64,000 bases of DNA from Eubacteriales bacterium (lineage in GTDB: Bacteria; Bacillota; Clostridia; Lachnospirales; Lachnospiraceae): the NCBI GenBank assembly GCA_030536995.1, contig JAUNOY010000002.1:186001-250000 (forward strand), read 5' to 3'. Positions 151 through 5,587 of the stretch are shown here, one piece after another; positions within the stretch are counted from its first letter, which is position 1; each line of letters begins with the position of its first letter. The notes under the pieces are model-generated. The model was not told the DNA's origin, ran no database searches, and saw only the letters and a program-made list of their open reading frames with translations. Made by a program: the position numbers and the translations under genes.

Positions 151-1221
151 ATGAAAAGTTTAAAGAAGTTTTTATCACACATTTTTATTGACGGTTTAAG
201 CGGCATGGCGCTTGGGCTTTTTTCCACCCTTATTATCGGAACGATTCTCAAGCAGATCGGCGACCTGATGGGAGGACAGCTTGGCAGCTATCTGAGCGCT
301 TTTGCAGTAGTAGCTCAGAGACTTACCGGAGCCGGAATCGGTATTGGAGTGGCTTACAAGTTTAAGGAATCCACCTATGTCCTTCTCTCGGCAGGCGCAG
401 TGGGAATGATTGGCGCTTATGCGTCAAATATTCTTGGCGGAACCTTCTTTTCTGAGAGCGGCGCAGTGATGCTGGCAGGACCGGGAGAACCGCTCGGCGC
501 TTTTATTGCCGCTTATGTAGGAATTACAGTGGGACGTCTCGTTGCCGGAAAAACAAAGCTTGACCTTCTGATCACTCCGGCTGTTACCATTATCAGCGGC
601 GGAGCAGTAGGAATGCTGATAGGACCGGGAATTTCCAGATTTATGAACTGGATCGGAGAACTGATTAACTGGGGAACTGTACAGCAGCCAATCCTTATGG
701 GAATTGTTGTATCCGTGCTTATGGGTATGGCGCTGACTCTTCCTATCAGTTCGGCTGCGCTGGCGATTATTCTTGGATTAGACGGGATAGCGGCAGGGGC
801 GGCAACTATTGGATGCTGCTGCCAGATGGTAGGATTTGCAGTGACAAGCTTTCAGGATAATGGTCTTGGAGGATTTTTTGCCCAGGGAGTGGGGACCTCC
901 ATGCTTCAGATTCCGAATATCGTACGGAAACCTCAAATCTGGATTCCGCCTACCCTTGCATCTGCCATTCTTGGACCGATTGCCATTATAGGACCATTCC
1001 ATATGACAAACAATCCTACAGGAGCAGGAATGGGTACATCAGGACTGGTAGGCCCGATTATGACGTATCAGACTATGGCTGCAGGGGAAGAGCCGATGCT
1101 GGTGCTGATGAAGATTCTGGTCTTTCAGGTACTCCTTCCGGCAGTGATTTCCTATATTATCTATGCAGCGATGAAAAAGAAAGGCTTTATACGAAAAGGC
1201 GATATGAAACTTGACGTATAG
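151..1221 (+). CDS. PfoR-like PTS EIIC-family membrane protein
   Basis: A 356-residue, very hydrophobic protein with about ten membrane segments and many glycine-rich stretches. It matches the PTS EIIC_2 family, annotated in clostridia as PfoR or putative toxin regulator. PfoR was named for an effect on perfringolysin expression, but the architecture is that of a permease-like membrane component and no DNA-binding domain is visible. No EIIA or EIIB partner lies next to it, so a substrate cannot be assigned. The start is supported by AGGAGG at 141-146. It is probably monocistronic: 227 bp and a separate promoter separate it from the next gene. The family is fairly clear; the function is unknown. 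Confidence 0.8.
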   Translation: MKSLKKFLSHIFIDGLSGMALGLFSTLIIGTILKQIGDLMGGQLGSYLSAFAVVAQRLTGAGIGIGVAYKFKESTYVLLSAGAVGMIGAYASNILGGTFFSESGAVMLAGPGEPLGAFIAAYVGITVGRLVAGKTKLDLLITPAVTIISGGAVGMLIGPGISRFMNWIGELINWGTVQQPILMGIVVSVLMGMALTLPISSAALAIILGLDGIAAGAATIGCCCQMVGFAVTSFQDNGLGGFFAQGVGTSMLQIPNIVRKPQIWIPPTLASAILGPIAIIGPFHMTNNPTGAGMGTSGLVGPIMTYQTMAAGEEPMLVLMKILVFQVLLPAVISYIIYAAMKKKGFIRKGDMKLDV

Positions 1222-1448: not shown

Positions 1449-2240
1449 ATGAAGAAATTAGCAGCACTTGCGCTTTGCGCAGCCATGACAGTATCTATGA
1501 CAAATACTGTTTTTGCACAAAAGGAAGTAAAATCCATCGCTGACCTGGAAGGCGCAAAAATCGGTGTACAGCTTGGAACTACAGGTGATATCTATGCGAG
1601 TGATTATGAAGGCGATAAAGCCGGTACAGAAGTTGTTCGTTACAATAAAGCAAATGAAACAGTTATGGCTCTGAAACAGGGTAAGATTGACTGTGTTATC
1701 ATCGACAGTCTTCCGGCAGAGAAATTTATCGAAGGAAACGATGATCTTAAGATCCTCGATGAGGAGTTTGCTGTTGAGGAATATGCAATTGCAGTTAAAA
1801 AAGGCAACACAGAGCTGGTAGAAGAGATTAACAAAGCTCTGAAAGAACTGAAAGAAGACGGTACTCTTGAGCAGATTACAAACAACTTTATCGGCGATGA
1901 TGATGTAAAAGGAACCTGTCCATATGAGTCTCCGGAAGACGCAGATCATTCTAAAGGCAAACTGATTATGGCAACAAATGCAACTTTCCCTCCATATGAG
2001 TCTTTTGAGGGAGATGAGATTGTTGGATTTGACGTTGATATGGCAAAAGCTGTATGTGACAAACTTGGCTATGAATTCGAGGTAAAAGATATGGAATTCA
2101 ACGCAATCATCAATGCAGTTGACTCCGGTAAGGCAGACATCGGCGTTGCGGGTATGACTGTAACAGAAGATCGTCAGAAAAACGTTGATTTCACAGACAG
2201 CTATGCAACAGCTAAACAGGTAGTTATTGTTCGCAAATAA
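1449..2240 (+). CDS. Amino-acid ABC substrate-binding protein, apparently circularly permuted
   Basis: A secreted SBP_bac_3-type (GlnH/HisJ-like) binding protein of 263 residues. Residues 1-23 form a signal peptide ending in VFA; there is no lipobox cysteine. The mature protein begins directly with what is normally the second half of the fold: VKSIADLEGAKIGVQLGTTGD (27-47; compare VKSVKDLDG in E. coli GlnH), then the ligand-binding IIDS and the usual C-terminal motif GTLEQITNNFIG. After a 20-residue acidic linker comes the usual N-terminal half (171-263): LIMATNATFPPYE, VGFDVDMA, TEDRQKNVDFTDSY, ending at the hinge strand VVIVRK. Both halves look complete, so this is a rearrangement rather than a truncation. 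It is followed by its permease and ATPase genes. Role: extracellular capture of a polar amino acid; the substrate cannot be read from sequence. Confidence 0.88.
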   Translation: MKKLAALALCAAMTVSMTNTVFAQKEVKSIADLEGAKIGVQLGTTGDIYASDYEGDKAGTEVVRYNKANETVMALKQGKIDCVIIDSLPAEKFIEGNDDLKILDEEFAVEEYAIAVKKGNTELVEEINKALKELKEDGTLEQITNNFIGDDDVKGTCPYESPEDADHSKGKLIMATNATFPPYESFEGDEIVGFDVDMAKAVCDKLGYEFEVKDMEFNAIINAVDSGKADIGVAGMTVTEDRQKNVDFTDSYATAKQVVIVRK

Positions 2241-2270: not shown

Positions 2271-2311
2271 CCGGGCTTCCGGTATCGCCAATCCCGATAT
2301 CGGAAACCCGG
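2271..2311 (+). other. Intercistronic stem-loop after the binding-protein gene
   Basis: A 17-bp inverted repeat (2271-2287 with 2295-2311, two G-U pairs) with a 7-nt loop and no U-run. It lies between the binding-protein and permease genes. It more likely protects the upstream mRNA or partly attenuates, raising binding protein over permease, than acts as a full terminator. Confidence 0.6.
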
Positions 2312-2362: not shown

Positions 2363-3064
2363 GTGGTGGAAATTTTGGCTGATTTTATTGAAAAATTTAA
2401 GTTTAATTTCATTGAAAACTCAAGATATGAGTTTATTTTTACAGGATTAAAAAATACACTTTTGATTACCCTTTTTGCGGTTATCATCGGTATTGTACTT
2501 GGTTTCATGATTGCGATTGTACGTTCTACCCACGACAGGACAGGAAAAATGAAATTCCTCAATGCTGTCTGTAAGGCGTATATTACGGTGATTCGAGGAA
2601 CACCGGCTATGATCCAGTTATTGATTATGTATTATGTTATTTTTGTAACATATGATCCCGGAATTATGGTTACAGCGATTATTGCCTTTGGTCTTAACTC
2701 TGCGGCATATGTTGCCGAGATTGTTCGTTCCGGTATTATGTCCATTGACGAGGGACAGTTTGAAGCAGGGCGAAGCCTGGGTCTGAATTACAGACAGACT
2801 ATGATTCTGATCATCCTTCCTCAGGCATTTAAAAATGTTCTTCCTGCGCTGGCAAACGAGTTCATCGTATTAATGAAAGAGACCTCTATCAGTGGTTATA
2901 TCGGATTGACAGATCTGACACGAGGCGGAGATATTATCCGAAGCCAGACATATGAAGCTCTGCTGCCTCTGCTTGCAGTAGCGGCAATTTATCTGATACT
3001 TGTCGTATTCCTTACACATCTTGTCAGCAAACTGGAAAGGAGACTGAGAAACAGTGAACGCTAA
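2363..3064 (+). CDS. Polar amino-acid ABC transporter permease
   Basis: A HisM/GlnP-family inner-membrane subunit of 233 residues with about five membrane segments. The cytoplasmic EAA loop, [14 protein letters not shown], near residue 135 docks the ATPase; the [10 protein letters not shown] motif near residue 78 is typical of the family. Start choice is open: GTG at 2363 is only 2 nt from AGGA (2357-2360), so the second GTG at 2366 is at least as likely. The 3' end overlaps the ATPase gene by 11 bp, so the two are probably translationally coupled. It acts with the permuted binding protein upstream and the ATPase downstream; the membrane subunit could work as a homodimer because no second permease is present. 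Confidence 0.93.
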
Positions 3065-3797
3065 TGGTGAAATTTTATTAGATGTCAAGGGCCTTGAGAA
3101 AGCTTTTGGCGGCAATCAGGTTCTCAATGGAATCACAACACAGATCCGTAAAGGAGAAGTAGTAGCGATTATCGGACCGTCTGGCTGCGGTAAATCTACA
3201 TTTTTACGTTCTTTAAATCTTCTTGAGGTTCCTACAGGAGGACAGATTCTCTTTGAGGGAACAGATATTACGGATAAATCTGTAAATGTTGATAAAATGC
3301 GTCAGAAGATTGGAATGGTATTTCAGCAGTTTAATCTTTTTCCTCATCTGACGATCAAAAAAAATATCATGCTTGCGCCTGAGAAGCTTGGGCTTATGAG
3401 CCGCGAGGAAGCGTCTAAAAAAGCGGACGAGCTTCTGGAGAGAGTCGGACTTCCAGACAAGGCGGACGCATATCCGAGTCAGCTTTCCGGCGGTCAGAAA
3501 CAGCGTATCGCCATTGCAAGAGCTATGGCAATGAATCCGGATGTGATGCTCTTTGACGAGCCTACATCTGCTCTTGACCCTGAAATGGTAGGAGAAGTTC
3601 TTGAGATTATGAAGGAGCTTGCACAGACGGGAATGACTATGGTTGTAGTCACTCACGAAATGGGATTTGCCCGTGAGGTTGCCAGCCGTGTTATGTTTAT
3701 TGACGATGGAAGAATTCAGGAAGAAAATACTCCGGTAGAATTCTTTGGCAATCCGAAAAACCAGAGACTGAAGGATTTCCTGTCAAAGGTACTTTAA
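3054..3797 (+). CDS. glnQ: Polar amino-acid ABC transporter ATP-binding protein
   Basis: A 247-residue ABC ATPase that powers the preceding permease. Walker A is GPSGCGKST (41-49), the Q-loop is VFQQFNLF, the signature LSGGQKQR starts near 144, Walker B is [14 protein letters not shown] near 164, and the switch histidine is in VVTHEMGFA. The length is usual for GlnQ/HisP. It starts at GTG 3054 inside the permease gene, behind AAAGGAG. The operon ends at the hairpin at 3831-3881. The symbol reflects the family; glutamine specificity is not shown. Confidence 0.93.
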
Positions 3798-3830: not shown

Positions 3831-3881
3831 AAAAAAAGAGCATCCGATGCTGCGCAGACAGTACAGGATGCTCTTTTTTTA
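3831..3881. terminator. Bidirectional terminator between the amino-acid ABC operon and the CBS gene
   Basis: GAGCATCC (3838-3845) pairs with GGATGCTC (3866-3873), flanked by A7 on the left and T8 on the right, so it can end transcripts from both convergent operons. Confidence 0.85.
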
Positions 3882-4319
3882 TTCCGCTTTTTCTTTTTGG
3901 GAATCAGCGGTTAATTTCTTTAGCTCATTGTAACAATATTTGATGATTTCCTTACGGGTGATGATTCCGATGAAATAACCATGGTCATCAACAACAGGAA
4001 CATAGTTCTGATTGATGGCGCGGTCCAGAAGATCTTCCATAGCAGAATCTGCATGAACCGGCTTATAAGTAGCTCTGCGAGGCAGCGCCATGATAGGAAC
4101 ACCCTCTGCATCTTTCATATCGGAAATATGCATATGCTTCATTCCCCAGAGCAGATCGCCTTCAGAAATTGTACCTGTGTATTTTCCGTCCAGACTCAGA
4201 AGAGGGATACAGGAAAATTTCCTGTGTTCCATTTTTTCGAGAGTCTGGCGCAGAGTTTCGTTCTCAAATATGTAAGCAACTTCGCTTTTCGGTGTTAAAA
4301 AAAATAAAATGTTCTTCAA
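3879..4319 (-). CDS. CBS-domain pair protein
   Basis: A cytosolic 146-residue protein made almost only of two CBS motifs: residues about 8-60 (LRQTLEKMEHRKFSCIPLLS ... TISEGDLLW) and about 75-132 (AMEDLLDRAINQNYVPVVDD ... GIITRKEIIKY). Stand-alone CBS pairs bind adenine nucleotides or, in several Firmicutes, cyclic di-AMP; which ligand applies here is not visible. The start is TTG 4319, since an in-frame stop lies just upstream and GGGG sits 7 nt before the TTG. It follows asnA by 36 bp on the same strand and ends at the shared terminator, so it is probably co-transcribed with asnA. Confidence 0.8.
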   Translation of the reverse strand: MKNILFFLTPKSEVAYIFENETLRQTLEKMEHRKFSCIPLLSLDGKYTGTISEGDLLWGMKHMHISDMKDAEGVPIMALPRRATYKPVHADSAMEDLLDRAINQNYVPVVDDHGYFIGIITRKEIIKYCYNELKKLTADSQKEKAE

Positions 4320-4355
4320 TCTGATACCCCATTACATTTGTGTGAATTGCTGCTG

Positions 4356-5363
4356 TTACAGAAGTTCGATACCTGCTTTTCGTGCCTGTACGATCATTTC
4401 TTCCGGCCAGAGAGAAACGTGAACCTCTCCGATATGCGCTTTGCGCAGGAAAAACATACAGATTCTGGATTGCCCGATACCGCCGCCGATTGTATACGGA
4501 AGTTCTTTATTAAGAATTGCTTTCTGGAAATCAAGCTCCCTTCGGTTGTCACAGCCGGAGAGAGTGAGCTGTCTGTCAAGGCTCTTTTCATCTACACGGA
4601 TGCCCATGGAAGAAAGCTCAAGAGCAATGTCCAGAACAGGGTAGTAAACAAGAATGTCACCGTTTAATTCCCAATCGTCGTAGTCAGGAGCACGGCCGTC
4701 GTGAGGTTTGCCGTCACGCAGTTCTTTACCAATCTGCATGAGGAAGACAGCGCCTTTTTCTTTAGTAATCCGGTACTCTCTTTCCTTTGGTGTACATTCG
4801 GGATACATGTCTGCAAGCTCCTGAGAAGTGACAAAGCTGATTTCTCTTGGGAGAAATTCCTCGATGTAGTCATATTGTACAGCCATGTATTTCTCGGTTT
4901 TTCGCAGAGCACTGTAAATGGCACGTACTGTCTGGATGAGAGTGTCCATATTACGGGCTTCTTTTGATATGACCTTTTCCCAGTCCCACTGATCCACATA
5001 GACGGAGTGGATATTATCAAGATCTTCATCTCTGCGGATTGCAATCATATCGGTATAAAGTCCTTCACCCTCTTTAAAACCGTATTTCTTCAGTGCATAA
5101 CGCTTCCATTTCGCCAGAGAGTGGACGATTTCCGCATCCTGCTCCTGACCCTTTATATCAAAGCTTACAGGACGTTCTACACCGTTCAGGTTATCGTTAA
5201 GTCCGGAAGCCGGATTTACAAATACAGGAGCGGAGACACGCAGAAGGTTAAGCTTCTGAGCCAGTGTCTGCTGAAAAAAGTCCTTTACGGTCTTAATCGC
5301 TATCTGTGTATCATGAAGATTCAGGTCTGCCTTATATCCTGTCGGAAGTATTAACTGTTCCAT
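4356..5363 (-). CDS. asnA: Aspartate-ammonia ligase (asparagine synthetase A)
   Basis: Makes asparagine from aspartate, ammonia and ATP through an aspartyl-adenylate; the fold is that of class II aminoacyl-tRNA synthetases. The 335-residue protein begins MEQLILPTGYKADLNLHDTQ and contains FVNPASGLNDNLNGVERPVSFD, VYVDQWDWEK and the C-terminal GGGIGQSRICMFFL motif, all typical of AsnA, and the length fits the family (about 330). The ATG at 5363 is preferred over an upstream in-frame ATG because AAGGGGG lies just before it and family homology starts there. A good promoter lies on the minus strand at 5460-5488, with a GC-rich leader of about 90 nt. Confidence 0.95.
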   Translation of the reverse strand: MEQLILPTGYKADLNLHDTQIAIKTVKDFFQQTLAQKLNLLRVSAPVFVNPASGLNDNLNGVERPVSFDIKGQEQDAEIVHSLAKWKRYALKKYGFKEGEGLYTDMIAIRRDEDLDNIHSVYVDQWDWEKVISKEARNMDTLIQTVRAIYSALRKTEKYMAVQYDYIEEFLPREISFVTSQELADMYPECTPKEREYRITKEKGAVFLMQIGKELRDGKPHDGRAPDYDDWELNGDILVYYPVLDIALELSSMGIRVDEKSLDRQLTLSGCDNRRELDFQKAILNKELPYTIGGGIGQSRICMFFLRKAHIGEVHVSLWPEEMIVQARKAGIELL

Positions 5364-5459
5364 TGGTTGAATCCCCCTTCGTAATTTAATGCTGCAGAAA
5401 CAGGAACCGTTTCTGGCGCCGGATGTCCGGAAAAAATACCCCCGGCACATCTCTGCAAC

Positions 5460-5488
5460 ATTATAACAGGAAAAGTTATGTTTGGCAA
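5460..5488 (-). promoter_or_regulatory. Promoter of asnA
   Basis: On the minus strand TTGCCA (5488-5483) and TATAAT (5465-5460) are separated by exactly 17 bp. Transcription would start near 5453. The leader contains a small hairpin, CAGAAAC/GTTTCTG, at about 5396-5416, of unknown meaning. Confidence 0.75.
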
Positions 5489-5587
5489 TTTGCACCTTTT
5501 AAAAATTCTGTGAAAATGATACAATAAAACAGGAAAAGATTTGTAATCTGAAATATACGCGCTGCGCGGAGTAAAGGAGGGAAATAT

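Follow-up and report, generated by a model that had tools for sequence, protein, structure and literature searches.

The window (the whole 64,000-base stretch of DNA analysed here) carries an operon in which the gene of a binding protein of the SBP_bac_3 family is followed by genes for a HEQRo-type amino-acid permease and an ATPase (Table 1). This is the arrangement of a polar amino-acid importer, and the normal operon reported in an earlier note on the same DNA is borne out. Immediately upstream of the operon lies a PTS EIIC_2 gene, relatives of which were absent from the other fetched loci, these spanning only a few kilobases. An inverted repeat between the binding-protein and permease genes, noticed by eye, may set their relative expression. 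No Rfam family matched the 64,000-base window at gathering score, so that neither a riboswitch nor a T-box names a substrate, and the loci of 12 relatives gave only three tRNAs and one tetrahydrofolate riboswitch.

Table 1. Features of the window, with carriers of its segment order and multi-domain forms elsewhere (positions in the window unless a locus is given)
Feature	Location	Strand	Basis or remark
PTS EIIC_2 gene	151-1221		
Binding-protein gene	1449-2240	+	open frame, 263 aa
Signal peptide MKK...VFA	1449-1517	+	read from translation; no lipobox cysteine at its end
Segment B2, residues 26-100, small lobe	1524-1748	+	4zv1 alignment from chain residue 108; HMM segment
Segment B1, residues 101-150, hinge 2 and C-terminal large-lobe part	1749-1898	+	4zv1 alignment; HMM segment
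Linker joining old C- and N-termini, residues 151-166, DDVKGTCPYESPEDAD	1899-1946	+	
Segment A, residues 167-263	1947-2237	+	4zv1 6-104 alignment; relatives' profile A3 = 1ggg 3-95
Inverted repeat CCGGGCTTCCGGTATCG...CGATATCGGAAACCCGG	2271-2311		15 of 17 paired
Amino-acid ABC permease, BPD_transp_1, HEQRo-type	2363-3064	+	Pfam, NCBIfam
Amino-acid ABC ATPase	3054-3797	+	best NCBIfam score GlnQ, 323 bits, below model cut-off 379
CBS-domain gene and asparagine synthetase (AsnA) gene	3879-5495	opposite	after the operon
Window's order, Blautia schinkii DSM 10518	L101		
Window's order, Roseburia hominis An869	L085		
Window's order, Parasporobacterium paucivorans DSM 15970	L102		
Window's order, Anaeromassilibacillus sp. 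An172	L130		outside Lachnospiraceae
Window's order, Ruminococcus sp. FMBCY1	L111, NZ_CP074197.1		complete chromosome
ABABAB-permease	L066		
BABA-permease	L128, L147		
BABABA-permease	L135		
BABA-permease-ATPase	L070 4106-7537		two permuted binding domains, one chain of about 1150 aa
Two permuted binding domains, permease and ATPase in one chain	L259 260-3715		about 1150 aa
Adjoining permuted binding-protein genes	L012 505-1293 and 1465-2256		

Segment order and position of the cut

The binding protein belongs to the SBP_bac_3 family (PF00497, 130.5 bits against a cut-off of 26.4), but Pfam, NCBIfam and PDB matches all give its two parts in the order B-A and not in the canonical A-B. Its residues 172-263 match PF00497 profile positions 1-92, the start of the profile thus lying at the end of the protein, and the first half, submitted to Pfam separately, matches positions 82-131 with 37.3 bits; for annotation this means that Pfam breaks the protein into two misordered stretches. 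The best PDB match, 4zv1 (AncQR), aligns its chain residues 6-104 with residues 166-263 (93.4 bits) and its chain residues 108-232 with residues 26-149 (89.2 bits). Only a rotated copy shows the N-part followed by the C-part as in the rest of the family, matching PF00497 in a single stretch (1-131 of 132) and TIGR01096 likewise (23-250 of 250). Judging from these alignments, the combination of reversed blocks and a single stretch after rotation is beyond chance. The circular permutation that the earlier note had proposed thus stands at the level of sequence, each half, aligned separately, matching the family in swapped order. It is a natural one, as close canonical relatives carry the same segments rotated, the tightest pair being L280 and L278. 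Among the best 60 of the 337 PDB sequences matched there was no single permuted domain, and the sole collinear match was the tandem protein 6h30.

No NCBIfam model reaches its curated cut-off, either for the protein or for its rotated copy. TIGR01096, the best, scores 161.2 bits in two stretches and 177.2 bits after rotation (cut-off 256.35), and the GlnH model 131.8 and 145.4 bits (cut-off 303). Since every model falls below its cut-off, we give the binding protein no substrate name.

Segment B2 contains the motifs VQLGTTGD and VIIDSLPA, and segment A runs from the N-terminal portion of the large lobe through hinge 1 to the small lobe's first strand, QVVIV, which forms the new end of the protein. 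In a 79-row alignment of relatives the arginine of TEDR (R242) is conserved in at least 90% of rows and the aspartate of VIID (D86) is invariant. We take these two, the T-x-x-R arginine and the small-lobe aspartate, to be ligand contacts in the SBP_bac_3 family, and the window protein has both. Tyr159 of the linker is invariant in the 79 aligned rows as well, the window protein included. The linker, earlier called acidic, does join the old C- and N-termini as had been said, but it is more than an acidic stretch, since members of the window's clade share a conserved motif in it.

The profile of the window's relatives ends at GlnBP residue 95 (1ggg chain 3-95), and the N-terminal half of the protein starts at GlnH profile position 122 (NCBIfam match), which corresponds to about mature residue 100 if, as we presume, the signal peptide of E. 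coli GlnBP has 22 residues. In GlnBP the large domain consists of residues 5-84 and 186-224, the small domain of residues 90-180 and the first hinge segment of residues 85-89, as stated in an excerpt of PMC13229503. Since the new ends fall at about 95 and 100, the cut maps within the small lobe, only a few residues beyond hinge 1, and not at the hinge crossover where it had previously been placed. In this numbering the new termini lie in the small lobe, and the old ends of the large lobe are connected by the linker. The 4zv1 and 1ggg alignments cover the sequence of each crossover segment, and both hinges should still be crossed in the permuted chain, as the cut opens nothing but the loop that follows the small lobe's first strand. 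A permutation removing one hinge crossover was considered and rejected on the ends mapped to GlnBP numbering.

Distribution and origins of the permuted orders

Proteins running B then A occur in at least 44 of 200 genomes of the window's family, its own genome included. Segment order was read in all 44, although the protein of one (G167, locus L068) is truncated where its contig ends, and those of G012, a tandem, and G080 are distant. A second order, B1-A-B2, is found in at least 20 of the 200, all of them different from those with the window's order, which brings the genomes with any permuted form to at least 64; these counts are lower bounds, matches being listed down to about E 1.5e-29. No genome had both orders among the matches listed for the 200; for independent genomes the chance of such a lack of overlap would be 0.005, but these genomes are not independent of one another. 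A scan of GTDB genomes gave at least 586 confirmed relatives, and 79 of the best 80 begin B2-B1-A, the remaining one (L142) being split over two frames. Homologues with the same order form a supported clade, a point that the earlier note had proposed to check in Lachnospiraceae, and the order also occurs outside Lachnospiraceae, in other families of the class (e.g. L130). Viral contigs held no relative for the second-order alignment and one for the alignment of the window's order, L154, which is canonical.

The non-identical fetched proteins comprised 101 single permuted, 39 permease-fused, 41 second-order, 60 canonical and 2 third-order proteins, proportions that carry no meaning, since membership of the set depended on matching permuted queries and on our own picks; the 41 include L233, really of the third order, whose N-terminal B2 piece fell below the threshold of our script. 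Permease and ATPase genes lie downstream of 93 of the 101 single permuted genes and of 54 of the 60 canonical ones, and in the 39 further distinct permuted relatives the binding protein is fused to the permease.

Tandem arrays of the SBP_bac_3 domain occur, and one might suspect an assembly artefact or a broken pseudogene joining fragments of two tandem copies, the case that the earlier note had held to be fatal to its reading. We regard this as extremely improbable for the window gene, which has an intact frame, a signal peptide, an operon and near-invariant residues. For the family it is excluded, because the same order recurs with a like junction motif in many genomes (the 44 or more above) and is present in a complete chromosome (L111).

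To trace the origins we built a tree of the rotated binding proteins, with 88 units and 208 columns; 267 units had been thinned by identity to 136, of which 88 were used, the window's clade being sampled and long-branched loci (e.g. L226, L252, L258, L262) being omitted. The window falls in a clade of 24 permuted units (support 95/96), and the order labels require four changes on the tree for the first order and four for the second. A single origin of all 47 permuted units in the tree was rejected (p 0.0014). One origin for the window's clade and a group that we call T1b (L204, L205, L206, L209 and L210) was unrejected on the binding proteins alone (p 0.060) and rejected once the permeases were added (p 0.0004, 57 chosen loci), a result to be read knowing that the tested groups were named after the trees had been seen and that exchange of operon parts could mimic it. 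Because L059, L064 and L144 lie inside the window's clade in the 88-unit tree and outside it in the joint binding-protein and permease tree, this test was rerun without them, and the single origin was again rejected (p 0.00003). Holding these three with the window's clade was unrejected (p 0.218), as was one origin of the second order (p 0.118, and 0.066 with permeases). The tree of the permeases alone places T1b beside the canonical L236 and L246 (support 97) and also disperses those that accompany the window's order, with 11 changes and many weak branches; operon parts may therefore have been exchanged, or this tree may be poorly resolved.

Compared by eye, the junction linkers resemble one another within a group but not from one group to the next. 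The pattern YIGDDTKGxxPYxSPExVDRSNGxL is found in most of the window's clade and YFGDGEPxxVxSAxLDxSKDQL in the main second-order group, with KYISGxxHDLxFQ and KYIPSGATVEKKD in two other groups. L280, from another subfamily, has the window's order with each half 61% identical, in swapped position, to the canonical L278, and shares 31% identity with the window protein across 208 columns, which clearly points to a separate permutation event. Taken together, the sequences give good support to at least three permutation events (the window's clade, at least one for the second order, and L280), T1b is likely to represent a fourth, and five or more are possible.

Cut sites and multi-domain forms

In proteins of the second order the N-terminus lies shortly ahead of hinge 2 and the C-terminus follows a helix of the small lobe (20 of 20 fetched, L034-L053, with more elsewhere). 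In a third order, represented by L233, L235 and L242, the cut is inside the small lobe and the chain ends shortly after GTTGD, and in L252-L256 the order is like that of the window with a cut a few residues later. Placed on the GlnH model, the new C-termini are at about mature residue 95 in the window protein, 102 in L252, 120 or a little later in L242, and about 164-166 in L217 and L211. On this mapping all the cut sites are in the small lobe, residues 90-180.

We also took a census of cut sites with a doubled canonical query, in which the start of the match reveals the cut; the window's own genome was counted in both samples. By reading of the matches, the window's order occurs in at least 11 and the second order in at least 9 of 60 family genomes, and the window's order in at least 3 of 81 genomes of the phylum. 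Among the matches listed, 17 rows from the family and 3 from the phylum have their start at 202-217, slightly ahead of position 222, where canonical proteins start. Nine of these 20 rows, all from the 17, were fetched, and segment A comes first in 9 of 9, as in canonical proteins, only segment A being recognised in two of them. Setting aside the 20 rows, no full-length row among the matches listed starts inside the large lobe. The small domain makes up 91 of 226 residues, and five independent, even cuts would all fall there with a probability of 0.011; this is only suggestive of a real bias, as the number of events is uncertain, and large-lobe cuts may simply not fold.

Several relatives combine binding domains in tandem with the permease, or with permease and ATPase, in one chain (Table 1). 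L066 groups with canonical proteins in the trees, and L128, L135 and L147 are nested within the permuted clade and may have arisen by later duplication. The existence of these tandem proteins makes the tandem intermediates proposed below possible, and the four are possible candidates, but only candidates, as ancestors of the window's clade. In one locus, L012, two permuted binding-protein genes adjoin.

Function, anchoring and comparison with known systems

Very probably, the product of the gene is a polar-amino-acid binding protein circularly permuted by nature, which folds and serves its own operon. Such a gene would probably have arisen by tandem duplication and fusion of two copies, followed by loss of the ends, which would leave the latter part of copy 1 continuing into the earlier part of copy 2. 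The chain would start in the small lobe, pass through hinge 2, complete the large lobe through the new linker, cross hinge 1 and end on the first small-lobe strand. As the lobes, the crossovers and the presumed pocket residues are all present in the sequence, the protein should open and close like its relatives; an alpha-amino acid would be expected to bind in the cleft and to be delivered to the permease and ATPase of the operon.

The order of segments alone fits equally a monomer and a swapped oligomer in which B of one molecule pairs with A of another, and tandem binding domains are known in the family (6h30). That the protein functions only as such an oligomer nevertheless seems very unlikely to us, since the 16 linker residues between the aligned blocks would seem to suffice for a single chain to complete its own large lobe, and since the B-A unit occurs singly, fused to the permease, and in tandems of two or three, as would a self-contained module.

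A further feature bears on the role of the folded permutant in import. Lipid-anchored binding proteins of Gram-positive bacteria carry a lipobox cysteine, and the signal peptide of the window protein ends in VFA without one. By eye, the cysteine is present in 87 of 100 distinct single permuted proteins and lacking in 13, the window protein included; a loose pattern had given 84 of 101, counting the window protein through LALC, which we take as a false match, and a strict pattern 55 of 100, the 45 failures then being read by eye to arrive at the 13. Such an absence is odd for the binding protein of a Gram-positive importer, and puts in question its means of staying at the cell surface. The missing cysteine here and in 12 of the 99 other proteins, together with one canonical SBP_bac_3 gene elsewhere in the genome (L002, segment A first), would suit a protein that folds but acts as a sensor or decoy. 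We consider this very unlikely, as the order binding protein, permease, ATPase is conserved and a fusion to the permease occurs in 39 distinct relatives.

In the importer's binding protein, the permutation would change the tether, the lipid anchor or the permease being now on the small lobe. One might speculate that the SBP_bac_3 proteins of the Bacillota form a permutation series, with at least three cut places, several origins and cuts always in the small lobe, in which tethering by the other lobe was adaptive; we hold this tentatively and find it, on the whole, rather doubtful. If true, an N-terminal lipid anchor or a C-terminal permease would repeatedly have moved from the large to the small lobe with the crossovers intact. 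In the window protein and the 12 others that lack a lipobox, tethering is unlikely to have been the purpose. The permutants raise the question of whether the identity of the tethered lobe matters.

Compared with GlnH, ArtJ and AncQR, both halves of the protein match at family-level significance and the permease and ATPase partners are the usual ones, but the halves are reversed, the linker is new and the termini are in the small and not the large lobe. The tandem binding domains of GlnPQ-type proteins (6h30) have their counterpart here in permease fusions with repeated binding domains (L017, L066, L128, L135), with the difference that the units of L017-type fusions, L128, L135 and L147 start with B and end with A. 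Circularly permuted binding proteins have reportedly been engineered, together with ancestral protein reconstruction, for FRET sensors, going by a title among the references of PMC7683729. This suggests by analogy that the fold may tolerate circular permutation; those forms were made in the laboratory, whereas the SBP_bac_3 forms are natural and could serve as templates for biosensor design. Natural circular permutation between close relatives has, to our knowledge, rarely been so well sampled, and as permuted, unpermuted, tandem and permease-fused forms coexist, the duplication-and-trimming route is testable.

The earlier note knew of no permuted SBP_bac_3 protein, and we found no report of one in the open-licence PMC literature, a weak absence given narrow queries and subscription papers lying outside. 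Permutation of the fold itself, however, has been described: an excerpt of PMC2395249 lists circular permutants among glycine-betaine-binding proteins (2b4l, 1r9l, 1sw1), molybdate-binding proteins and CysB, found by structure comparison of proteins less than 24% identical, with the position of the pocket kept. Those are likewise two-lobed ligand-binding proteins, similar in overall structure and permuted by nature; here the proteins are amino-acid binders with several cut sites, and permuted proteins stand close to canonical ones, L280 and L278 sharing 61% identity in each half.

As a minor observation, the CBS-domain and AsnA genes that follow the operon in the window are also present in the fetched loci of the permuted proteins L074, L081, L087, L089 and L097, all five of which lack the lipobox cysteine, and AsnA is present in one canonical locus, L163.
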